From Clostridiales bacterium (lineage in GTDB: Bacteria; Bacillota; Clostridia; Peptostreptococcales; Anaerovoracaceae): 51,229 bases of DNA. Position 1 is the first letter of the stretch. Each line of letters opens with the position of its first letter. Made by a program: the position numbers and the translations under genes. Below, piece by piece: positions 19,771-45,267 of the stretch. The stretch is from positions 1-51,229 of the forward strand of contig JALFNS010000021.1 in NCBI GenBank assembly GCA_022773945.1. The letters are read 5' to 3'. The notes beneath the pieces are model-generated. The model was given only the letters and a program-made list of their open reading frames with translations. It was not told the origin of the DNA and did no database searches.

Positions 19771-20073
19771 ATGACAGATAAAATATATACGGTTGAAGAA
19801 ATACGTGACTGTATTACTCCCATAGCTAAAGAATATGGCGTGGAAAAAGTATATCTGTTTGGTTCCTATGCTCGGGGAGAAGCTACAGAGCAATCCGATT
19901 TGGACTTTAGAATTGACAAAGGGGAGATTCGAGGATATTTTGCTTTAGGAGGGCTGTATAACAAGCTGACTGACGCCTTGGACAAACCGGTAGATCTCGT
20001 TACAACTGAGAGCCTTGATGATGAATTTATCAAGAATATTGCCCCGGAGGAGGTATTGCTCTATGTCAATTAG
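19771..20073 (+). CDS. MNT-domain nucleotidyltransferase antitoxin (MntA type)
   Basis: 100 residues. The minimal nucleotidyltransferase motif is complete: LFGSYARGEATEQSDLDF, a GS-x10-DxD pattern with D43 and D45 as metal ligands. Known: MntA antitoxins neutralise HEPN toxins by AMPylating a tyrosine in the toxin active site. GGAGGGAGG precedes the ATG. The next gene, overlapping by 11 bases, is the HEPN partner. AT-rich relative to neighbours. Confidence 0.85.
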   Translation: MTDKIYTVEEIRDCITPIAKEYGVEKVYLFGSYARGEATEQSDLDFRIDKGEIRGYFALGGLYNKLTDALDKPVDLVTTESLDDEFIKNIAPEEVLLYVN

Positions 20074-20407
20074 CAGTCGCGATCAAAATGTAATCAAACA
20101 CATTATAGAGTATTGTGAACAAATTGAAGAAACGAATAAGGAGTTTGAAAATAAGTATGAAGTGTTTGTGAAAAGCAACACATATAGAAATGCGATATCC
20201 TTGTGTATTTTGCAAATAGGAGAGTTGGTGACCGTTCTTTCGGATGATTTTAAGAATAGTTATACACAAGTTCCATGGCGGGATATCAAAGCGATGCGCA
20301 ATATTGTTGCACATAGATATGGCACTGTAAACAAGGATATGTTGTGGAATACGGTTCATGAAGATATTATAGAACTGAAAAATTTCTGTAAAAATGTATT
20401 AGAATGA
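20063..20407 (+). CDS. HEPN-domain toxin (HepT, DUF86 type)
   Basis: 114 residues, mainly helical. The HEPN ribonuclease motif Rx4HxY is R79-NIVA-H84-R-Y86; Y86 is the expected AMPylation site for the neighbouring MNT protein. HEPN toxins are RNases that act on tRNA or mRNA. The start at 20063 follows GGAGG inside the antitoxin gene, giving translational coupling; an upstream in-frame start at 20015 would overlap much further and has no ribosome site. Confidence 0.85.
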   Translation: MSISSRDQNVIKHIIEYCEQIEETNKEFENKYEVFVKSNTYRNAISLCILQIGELVTVLSDDFKNSYTQVPWRDIKAMRNIVAHRYGTVNKDMLWNTVHEDIIELKNFCKNVLE

Positions 20408-20512: not shown

Positions 20513-20542
20513 TTGCCCGGCTGCGCGCCATGTCGGTATAAT
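20513..20542 (+). promoter_or_regulatory. promoter-like pair in front of the palindrome cluster
   Basis: -35 TTGCCC (20513-20518), 18-base spacer, -10 TATAAT (20537-20542). A transcript from here would contain palindromes A to C (20559-20792). No protein start with a ribosome site lies between this and 20989, so the RNA would be a long leader or a non-coding RNA. Confidence 0.45.
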
Positions 20543-20558: not shown

Positions 20559-20602
20559 CATGTATTCCTTTAGCCCTGTTTTTGCCCCTCTAGGAATACA
20601 TG
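20559..20602. repeat. extragenic palindrome, copy A
   Basis: Perfect 11-bp arms CATGTATTCCT / AGGAATACATG enclose a core that on the minus strand reads GGGGCAAAAACAGGGCT. By hand alignment it matches copy F (45182-45222) at about 33 of 42 positions, in inverted orientation. The arm bases that differ from F change in pairs, keeping the stem. Confidence 0.8.
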
Positions 20603-20687
20603 CGTGCTTAATATCAGGGGGTATGTGTACTCAAATCTTCACCATTAGCCTGTTAGGCATATAAGAGGGAGCTTCTGGGAGGATTCA

Positions 20688-20727
20688 TATACACCAAAAG
20701 GCTGTGTTTTGAGACTCTGGGTCTACA
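20688..20727. repeat. extragenic palindrome, copy B (degenerate)
   Basis: Arms TATACACC / GGTCTACA (6 of 8 paired) around a core whose minus strand reads CTCAAAACACAGCCTTTT. Same orientation as copy A, about 85 bases after it. More diverged than the others but with the same spacing between arms. Confidence 0.55.
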
Positions 20728-20750
20728 ATTGCAGCTATGTTTCGAGATGC

Positions 20751-20792
20751 ATGTATACCTAGGGCCTTGTTTTCGAGGCGAAAGGAATACAT
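20751..20792. repeat. extragenic palindrome, copy C
   Basis: Arms ATGTATACCT / AGGAATACAT (9 of 10 paired). The minus-strand core reads CGAAAACAAGGCCCTAGG and aligns with the core and right arm of copy F at about 19 of 25 positions. It ends 8 bases before the -35 of the next promoter. Confidence 0.65.
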
Positions 20793-20799
20793 CGGCACT

Positions 20800-20826
20800 T
20801 TGAAATACCCCCCTGGGGTATATAAT
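20800..20826 (+). promoter_or_regulatory. promoter overlapped by a CsoR/CstR-like operator, upstream of the XRE regulator
   Basis: -35 TTGAAA (20800-20805) and -10 TATAAT (20821-20826) have a 15-base spacer filled by the palindrome ATACCCCCCTGGGGTAT (20805-20821). Known: operators of the CsoR/RcnR/CstR repressor family have the form of A/T ends flanking C-runs and G-runs. No such repressor is encoded in the window. A 12-base palindrome GGTAATATTACC follows at 20830-20841. The downstream gene starts at 20989. Confidence 0.55.
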
Positions 20827-20988
20827 AGCGGTAATATTACCCTGAGATATGATAACATGATATACTATCACCAATTCCTGCGCACCTGCGCACCGGAGAC
20901 TACTGCTGCAACCGGGGCGGACGATAACAGCCGCATTGACAGTTATATTATTCAGCAGATACAGAATTAAGAACTAAAGGGGGTTAAA

Positions 20989-21501
20989 ATGAATTTCAGC
21001 GAACATATTAAAGCGATAAGGACAGAACGTGGATTGACTCAGGAGGAGTTCGCCGGGAGGCTGGCCGTTACGAGACAGGCGGTATCAAACTGGGAGAATG
21101 GCAAGAACCTTCCCGATATAGAGATGCTTATACTGATAGCCGGAGAATATGATGTTTCTCTTGACTATCTGATTCTGGGCGAGAACAGGGAAGTGGAAGA
21201 CATAACTAAAAAGCTTATTGACGATGGGAGTGAGGGGCGACGAGCGAAGCGAAACACCATATCCCTGGGGATAGGAGCGGCACTGCTTCTCTTCGGTATG
21301 GTTTTTCTCATCATAAAAGGGCTGTCCGTAGAGTATGTGGACGATAACGGTATTCTTCATGAAAATTTCTTCCTGCTGCCTCTGGCATTTATGAGCCTCT
21401 TCGGAAGCTTTTGCGTATTCCTGACAACAGGAATCAGATCGGCAGTAAGCAAAATAAAGAGGCATAAGGCAGGGGGTCTTGGAACAGGGGGAGGATTGTG
21501 A
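20989..21501 (+). CDS. XRE-family membrane-associated transcriptional regulator
   Basis: 170 residues. Residues 1-60 are a Cro/CI-type helix-turn-helix (TQEEFAGRLAVTRQAVSNWE, then NGKNLPD); residues about 85-160 contain two hydrophobic helices separated by an acidic loop. This HTH-plus-two-helices layout is common in Clostridia and suggests membrane anchoring or sensing. The ribosome site AAAGGGGG lies close before the ATG. Target unknown; autoregulation through GGTAATATTACC upstream is a possibility. Confidence 0.8.
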   Translation: MNFSEHIKAIRTERGLTQEEFAGRLAVTRQAVSNWENGKNLPDIEMLILIAGEYDVSLDYLILGENREVEDITKKLIDDGSEGRRAKRNTISLGIGAALLLFGMVFLIIKGLSVEYVDDNGILHENFFLLPLAFMSLFGSFCVFLTTGIRSAVSKIKRHKAGGLGTGGGL

Positions 21502-44849: not shown

Positions 44850-44963
44850 GACTATGCTTGGGGGGAAAGAAGGCTTTGGAAGTAATTCAGGAAATTGTCC
44901 AAATGTGGATGGTTTCCTGTTTTTATTTGATCAAAAGAAAGAAGAAGTGTAAGTTGATGAAAT

Positions 44964-44980
44964 ATACCCCGGAGGGGTAT
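44964..44980. promoter_or_regulatory. CsoR/CstR-like palindrome ATACCCCGGAGGGGTAT
   Basis: Same 7-3-7 layout as the palindrome at 20805-20821. A TTGATG lies at 44954-44959 and TATTTT at 44978-44983 (18-base spacer), so it may again overlie a promoter. A half site GGGGGTAT recurs at 45167-45174, and another at 20617-20624 in the first cluster. Confidence 0.5.
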
Positions 44981-44993
44981 TTTGCCTGGTCGT

Positions 44994-45032
44994 TGTACAC
45001 TTGGGAGGGTAAAATAGGGCTTCAGGTGTACA
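44994..45032. repeat. extragenic palindrome, copy E
   Basis: Arms TGTACACTT / AGGTGTACA (8 of 9 paired, the ninth a G-T pair) with core AAAATAGGGCTTC. Matches copy F at about 31 of 39 positions without gaps, in the same orientation. Confidence 0.75.
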
Positions 45033-45063
45033 GTAGCGGCTTCAAAGAGTGCATTTGATGCGC

Positions 45064-45086
45064 AGAAAAGGGCAAAAACCGGTGTA
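45064..45086. repeat. extragenic palindrome, partial copy G
   Basis: Contains the family core GGGCAAAAAC (45070-45079) and CGGTGTA, a piece of the right arm, but no matching left arm. Probably a decayed copy between E and F. Another weak candidate lies at about 45119-45157 around a TAAAAACAAC core. Confidence 0.4.
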
Positions 45087-45181
45087 AAAGTATAGATATT
45101 TAAAGTTTTAGAGGGTATATGCATGCGTATAGGCCCTAAAAACAACATTTAGCATAGATTAAGCTAGGGGGTATCCTCATA

Positions 45182-45222
45182 ATGTACACCTGAAGGGCAA
45201 AAACAGGGCTTAAGGTGTACAT
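45182..45222. repeat. extragenic palindrome, copy F (best preserved)
   Basis: Perfect 10-bp arms ATGTACACCT / AGGTGTACAT, plus three more pairs inside, around core GGGCAAAAACAGGGCT. Used as reference for the other copies. The 637-base stretch 44823-45459 has no convincing gene; it is filled by this cluster and a promoter for the reductase gene. Confidence 0.8.
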
Positions 45223-45267
45223 GGGACAAGGAAAAACTGCGCTGTCAGCGCTCTATGTGCTACAATT

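Follow-up and report, generated by a model that had tools for sequence, protein, structure and literature searches.

A dispersed palindromic element of about 265 bp that ends in a CsoR-type operator-like palindrome in a Clostridiales genome

The analysis in this study showed that the palindromes of about 40 bp in a stretch of Clostridiales DNA (51,229 nucleotides of contig JALFNS010000021.1, assembly GCA_022773945.1; hereafter the window) are parts of a larger, directional, non-coding element of about 265 bp, which is dispersed in the genome. The element consists of eight half-site positions of alternating orientation (TGTANNCC/GGNNTACA, the inner ones degenerate), followed by a 17-bp palindrome of the CsoR type. 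From the sequence comparisons described below, we consider it likely that the element is dispersed and that its operator is a true one for CsoR.

The first-pass annotation of the window had described a cluster of three palindromic units (A, B and C) between 20559 and 20792 as one group of a repeated family. The pattern TGTANNCC-N(10-35)-GGNNTACA had three exact sites in the window (units 1 and 4 of element W1 and unit 1 of element W2 in Table 1), where 0.05 was expected, and at least three sites were reached in 0 of 100 shuffles. In the whole genome (G000; a draft of 1.83 Mb in 50 contigs, 98.6% complete) the pattern gave 20 sites, and the reversed-pattern control gave none. Since the unit pattern is palindromic, forward and reverse counts are identical sites. 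The family is therefore real, and further copies exist. The proposed inverted match 24 kb away was also found, at the head of the list of inverted repeats in the window (20559-20590 with 45192-45223, 32 nt, 88% complementary), and the core is indeed conserved between units. Units A and C are exact sites of the pattern, whereas unit B has degenerate arms only (TATACACC/GGTCTACA). A fourth, degenerate unit between A and B had been overlooked, and the cluster does not end at 20792, as the element continues to a second palindrome (Table 1). The description of the stretch as gene-free holds for long reading frames, but frames of 77 and 73 aa overlap W1 when frames of at least 70 aa are counted. The palindrome of about 40 bp is thus real, but what is repeated is an element of about 265 bp that holds four such palindromes and has a CsoR-type operator at its end.

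The 20 exact units are spread over 11 loci, and 14 loci were found when all copies were counted: nine full copies (259-265 bp), four solo copies with a single unit and one regular four-unit array, in both orientations. The full copies, which could be aligned end to end, are W1 and W2 in the window and those on contigs C3, C12, C16, C21, C41, C42 and C47. In the solo copies (C3:10469, C17:4817, C49:33208 and C50:25191), one unit is followed by 13 bp and the end palindrome. The array (C25, 18960-19191) has four units without the end palindrome; array and operator can therefore exist apart. By arm type the full copies fall into two subfamilies, TTCC (five copies) and CACC (four copies). A profile of the full element (R1), whose source sequences include W1, matched W1 over its whole length with 194.1 bits. 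As a separate observation, all five full copies of the TTCC type have a GGGGTAT half-operator after unit 1 (20618-20624 in W1). In the C12 copy it takes the form of a short palindrome, ATACCC-GG-GGGTAT, which looks like a decayed second operator.

Table 1. Positions of the two elements of the window and of their parts
Feature	Position	Strand	Description
Element W1	20559..20823	+	TTCC-arm type, 265 bp: four tandem units, 13-bp spacer, CsoR-type operator; from the nine-copy alignment
W1 unit 1 (unit A of the first-pass annotation)	20561..20600	+	Perfect arms TGTATTCC/GGAATACA
W1 unit 2, degenerate	20626..20663	+	Half-sites TGTACTCA / GGCATATA, on the 32-bp lattice
W1 unit 3 (unit B)	20688..20727	+	Degenerate left arm TATACACC, right arm GGTCTACA
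W1 unit 4 (unit C)	20752..20791	+	Arms TGTATACC/GGAATACA, one mismatch
W1 CsoR type-2 operator-like palindrome	20805..20821	+	ATACCC-N5-GGGTAT
Element W2	44962..45223	-	CACC-arm type, 262 bp, inverted relative to W1
W2 unit 1	45183..45221	-	Perfect arms TGTACACC/GGTGTACA
W2 unit 4	44994..45032	-	One arm mismatch
W2 CsoR type-2 operator-like palindrome	44964..44980	-	Pattern match

The end palindrome, ATACCC-N5-GGGTAT, lies 13 bp past the last arm (12 bp in the C12 copy). It is exact in 12 of the 13 copies that carry it and has one mismatch in the remaining one (C3a). There are 14 exact sites in the genome, namely the 12 element copies and two sites in the csoR promoter (C48:4490 and 4516), one of which lies between TTGACA and TATTCT. 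When one mismatch was allowed, 17 sites were found, against three for the reversed control; the extra three were C3a and two unrelated places. A single gene of the CsoR family was found in the genome (PF02583, E 3.4e-30), and it lies downstream of the palindrome pair of C48. Among NCBIfam models the protein was nearest RicR, FrmR and RcnR, below the cut-offs of all three. The gene after csoR presumably encodes a CopA-like protein. From the palindromes in the csoR promoter, we infer that the CsoR of this genome uses the same site. In the nine full copies the 12 contact positions of the operator are identical, while the middle 5 bp of the operator vary. Between the subfamilies, the interior is only 39% identical and the spacer next to the operator 42%. 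Contact positions that are invariant beside a diverged interior, spacer and middle form the conservation pattern of an operator. A study on streptomycetes gives the type-2 CsoR consensus as ATATACCCCTNAGGGGTATAT, in which ATACCC and GGGTAT are the conserved blocks on either side of N5 and the TAC/GTA dyad (TAC-X9-GTA) is essential (PMC3902906).

The half-sites themselves are regularly spaced. A half-site scan of the C25 array placed them exactly at 0, 32, 64, 96, 128, 160, 192 and 224, with alternating orientation. Outer units lie at 0/31-32 and 185-191/217-223 in the full elements, where the degenerate inner units tend to the same lattice of about 32 bp. The inner-lattice score was 21/24 in W1 and 19/24 in C47, each reached by 0 of 2000 dinucleotide shuffles; the fraction of shuffles was 0.0015 for C3b, 0.020 for C21 and 0.021 for C16, and the scores were weak singly for C41 (0.064), W2 (0.069), C12 (0.18) and C42 (0.21). 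Since the copies are related, these are not independent tests. The mean lattice score of the nine copies had its maximum, 15.7, at slide 0, compared with 8.2-12.4 at 12 other offsets. Because the spacing within units equals that between units, exactly so in the C25 array, the arrangement is better explained by helical phasing, with three turns in 32 bp, than by separate hairpins. Among the ideas put forward in the first-pass annotation, two half-sites about three helical turns apart fit best. Such a lattice can be read as DNA wrapping, and the exact 32-bp lattice of the C25 array would point to a DNA-wrapping protein.

The element was then sought in related genomes and in sequence collections. 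The operator together with a half-site was found in one of 41 genomes of the genus, that of the window (nine sites; control 0). The unit pattern stood out in two of 349 genomes of the family, G000 with 20 sites and G079 with 15, while the others had at most three. The same two stood out among 393 genomes of the order (the sets overlap), where the next highest count was four. A pattern with a wider gap had at least one site in 53 of 61 genomes, with up to five sites outside G000 and up to four in controls. The profile R1 was strong only in G000 among 296 genomes; scoring was limited to six candidates per genome, so that its matches include six of the nine full copies and weaker relatives could have escaped it. 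Four weak R1 matches in genome G157 belonged to a different tandem element with GTATAC half-sites, and one in G216 (E 6.0e-5) lay inside a putative transposase-like frame. There were six other weak matches (E 0.003-0.008), of which that in G079 showed no unit. The G157 element is itself dispersed, being present at four places (L074:1053-1171, L075, L076 and L077) with GTATAC and GTACCC half-sites and TTTTG cores. Palindromes of the TGTATTCC type in genome G004 lie upstream of an open frame, which we take to be an IS1634-like transposase, and look unrelated. With W1 as the query (the TTCC type), plasmid records gave no match, and a 23-bp phage match (E 0.08, four related records) was taken as chance. 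In a genome-contig collection, which may omit G000 or very near genomes, the operator-plus-unit pattern had no match, and the unit-plus-core pattern had two (Cyanaurora and a Bacillales MAG), about the chance number as estimated by hand. Neither pattern had a match in a viral-contig collection, to which the same limit applies.

In G079, which belongs to another genus of the same family, 12 of 16 sites were palindromes with TGTAAACC/GGTTTACA arms, one of them with TGTAATCC, at nine loci. These tandem TGTAAACC...GGTTTACA palindromes (L079-L087) constitute a second family. They have the same half-site grammar (TGTANNCC/GGNNTACA), units of 39-40 bp and a tandem arrangement. They differ from the element of G000, however, in a period of 83 bp where tandem, in the core and in an extra GC-rich hairpin between units, and no CsoR palindrome was found in the nine loci. 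Another repeat was noticed in a different family of the order (G037, contig C1), a 35-bp TGTA(T/C)TCC...GGGCTACA in four copies (424875, 838235, 1021335 and 3043229).

The neighbours of the element vary from copy to copy, and several copies lie 15-48 bp from the edge of a reading frame. Open reading frames of at least 70 aa overlap nine of the 14 copies, and frames of at least 130 aa touch the element by at most 14 bp. The C12 copy lies about 16 bp upstream of a box, GAACGTTTGTTTGC, in the uvrB promoter, which we take to be SOS-like. In G027, whose uvrB is the most similar among the congeners (92% identity, compared with 88% or less in the others), the box and the -10 region are kept, and no element is present in the 101 bp that remain before the contig ends. 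Among 30 uvrB loci of the genus, some of them cut by contig ends, unit and operator occur only in that of G000, and the box occurs in 11. The difference at uvrB thus appears insertion-like, at one locus and in congeners rather than in strains of the same species. At the W1 locus no synteny was found in five congeners, which leaves no empty site to compare. In front of the C49 solo (L043:3187-3240) stands, in inverted orientation, the flank that usually comes after unit 1. This inverted flank matches W2 at 15 of 22 positions and C21 at 14 of 22; of 20,000 letter shuffles, one did as well for W2 and three did for C21. It matches C41 at 13 positions and C16 at 12. These facts suggest that the C49 solo may be an inversion or fold-back derivative, and that the palindromes may have been points of rearrangement.

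Other features were noted near the copies. A small gene pair resembling an MNT nucleotidyltransferase/HEPN (HepT) toxin-antitoxin system adjoins W1 in the window (19771-20407); its second gene matched the HepT model NF047751 with an E value of 1e-6, below the cut-off. Other repeats of the genome, GCGACGAGGACT or CACCGGGAGGGAA...CTGCCCAT, often stand beside elements as judged by eye (L041:1-120, L043:3290-3560, L040, L050, L046 and L047), and the GCGACGAGGACT motif is absent from the window.

There is another possible interpretation of these results. The element might be a selfish MITE- or REPIN-like element without a regulatory role, and its CsoR-like palindrome might be a transposase site or end that arose by convergence. 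Dispersal, the absence of coding capacity, sharp ends, two subfamilies and solo derivatives would all suit such an element, and an end motif that is invariant in the full copies is what is expected of a transposase end. The motif, however, is the same as in the palindromes of the csoR promoter and in the published consensus, and the variable middle of 5 bp is shared as well. In addition, no transposase partner was found, and the two ends are unlike: by eye there are no terminal inverted repeats (left end CATGTANNCC, reverse complement of the right end ATATACCC). As judged by eye within this one draft genome, the 13 operator-bearing copies show no target-site duplication. All 20 exact units belong to small elements and none to a parent IS, as far as draft contigs and a search for Y1 among the IS families can tell. 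We consider the purely selfish reading rather unlikely, although it survives best among the rivals.

The element could also be a copper-responsive promoter cassette, in which the operator overlaps an outward promoter and each insertion brings the neighbouring gene under CsoR control. At W1, a loose scan found an outward TTGAAA-15-TATAAT (11/12) or TTTGAA-16-TATAAT that overlaps the operator, as in the csoR promoter, and faces an HTH gene at 20989. Outward candidates were present in seven of the 13 copies by this loose rule, which was run without a chance control. Inward candidates, however, were equally frequent (7/13), five copies had none (C12, C3a, C50, C17 and C49), and the candidates of the seven copies other than W1 were weak (8-9/12). 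A stricter scan gave no promoter at the operator of W1 or W2. Near W1 it found 20513-20542 and 20924-20951 (two matches, compared with 1.7 by chance), and near W2 only 44841-44814 (one, compared with 1.1 by chance), which does not lead into W2. Moreover, the nearest reading frames are convergent around four of the 14 copies (C3a, C3b, C16 and C25). A CsoR-controlled outward promoter thus looks plausible only at W1, where it would read toward the HTH gene, and a general role as a promoter cassette is improbable.

The first-pass annotation had also taken paired changes between the arms (TT/AA and CA/TG) as a sign that base pairing is under selection, and had considered a structured RNA. The element would then encode a non-coding RNA of four hairpins. 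The paired changes are present, the units are palindromic and individual units fold. In a set of 26 units (outer units, solos and the C25 units) with ten arm pairs, the 10-bp arm pairs were kept in 92.3% of cells, and 22 cells were changed on both sides. Arm pairing, the number of doubly changed cells and the covariation score were each reached by 0 of 500 shuffles, while two of five arm covariation measures were at chance (doubly changed pairs 152/500, further pair types 321/500). The next pairs inward, of which four have letters in most rows, were paired in 47.6% of cases, compared with 47.2% in shuffles. Mismatches in the arms (CA 6, TG 3, GT 1, AA 3 and AG 1 in 225 cells of 25 units) showed no strand preference for wobble pairs, with CA at 6 against 4 for TG plus GT. 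Because pairing is strong in the arms but no better than chance farther in, there is little support for an RNA hairpin, and the symmetry of the units suits DNA half-sites no less than it suits a hairpin.

The arm symmetry is thus kept by paired changes, as had been claimed, but selection on pairing does not follow from such changes alone. In each full element the outer units have a common arm type, except for the left arm of unit 4 of W1, and a common arm type may spread by duplication, conversion or quasipalindrome repair. Each of these processes can generate paired arm changes. For the same reason, an RNAalifold fold of the full element, in which the arms of unit 1 pair with those of unit 4, was rejected as an artefact of the common arm type. 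A promoter-like TTGCCC-18-TATAAT (10/12) stops 16 bp short of W1 and would drive transcription into the element; this is the first of the two chance-level matches near W1 mentioned above, and no promoter-like match leads into W2. No Rfam family matched the window above the gathering score. A structured RNA would also leave the equal spacing within and between units unexplained. These facts make it quite improbable.

A REP- or BIME-type repeat spread by a RAYT transposase, as suggested by clustered palindromes of about 40 bp, several of them near the edges of reading frames, is very improbable and was rejected, because no Y1 transposase (PF01797) was found in the 98.6% complete assembly, although five of 14 control genomes matched, and because the 26 aligned units begin with TGTA and end with TACA, without GTAG or CGTC tags, at 14 loci (20 exact units) instead of more than 100 copies.

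We therefore return to the dispersed element with a CsoR operator. In the mechanism that we propose, the element would be mobile, or would have been until recently, but non-autonomous, with an enzyme acting in trans to move it, and an oligomeric protein would bind the phased half-sites on one helical face of double-stranded DNA. CsoR would sit at the right end of the element in low copper and leave it in high copper. Occupancy of the element end would then depend on copper, and this occupancy could gate the movement of the element, draw CsoR off its own promoter, or do both. We regard these two consequences, copper-gated mobility and CsoR titration, as the most sensible ones, with no preference between them. 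That the operator acts in either of these ways is a tentative proposal. The combined reading, a dispersed and probably mobile non-autonomous element with a phased nucleoprotein array, a CsoR-bound end, and gating or titration, seems to us evenly poised. It is unlikely, in turn, that the element is a copper-gated mobile or chromosome-organising element in the fuller sense, in which a multimeric protein wraps the array of eight half-sites and copper frees more than 12 copies, or the copies serve as a CsoR sponge.

If the sponge version were true, the element copies, which would raise the number of CsoR-type sites from two to about 15, would set the copper threshold of the CsoR regulon. If the gating version were true, copper stress would unlock copper efflux and at the same time free element copies for movement. 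An operator kept in every full and solo copy, with a single mismatch, would tie genome dynamics to the sensing of copper. The element would also offer a simple way to test whether repeats can serve as sponges for a repressor or as mobile DNA gated by stress.

Finally, the element was compared with known systems. Small dispersed non-coding elements are a known kind, and the combination of a metal-sensor operator with a three-turn lattice was not met in the literature searched, which lay mostly outside subscription journals. Within it, work on CsoR together with repeats or mobile elements, and on regulator-site or decoy repeats, contained no CsoR site in a repeat, and work on palindromic intergenic repeats contained no matching family. 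To our knowledge, sites of nucleoid proteins aside, it is rare for a small repeat to contain a recognisable site for one particular host regulator.

REP, BIME and REPIN sequences are likewise extragenic palindromes of about 40 bp that occur in groups. REP palindromes are reported to bear a GTAG or CGTC tag at one end (PMC3733652), and REP/RAYT systems usually to have more than 100 copies per genome (PMC2817692). The element of this genome differs from them in the lack of a detectable Y1 transposase and of the tag, in its few copies, in its fixed four-unit architecture of 265 bp and in the protein operator at one end. The prokaryotic MITEs (Correia, RUP, CIR and BrickBuilt) are likewise small, non-coding and dispersed, and Correia elements also carry a site for a host protein, IHF (PMC10969869). 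In contrast to these MITEs, no terminal inverted repeat or target duplication was seen here, the site is that of a specific metal sensor instead of a nucleoid protein, and the half-sites form a phased lattice. The type-2 operator of CsoR has the same ATACCC-N5-GGGTAT, TAC-X9-GTA dyad and variable middle as the element end, and the csoR promoter of this genome carries the same palindrome. Three CsoR sites described in S. lividans take their names from csoR and from two copZA operons, and two of these sites are stated to be upstream of copZA-like operons (PMC3902906). Here, in contrast, the site forms the end of a dispersed repeat.
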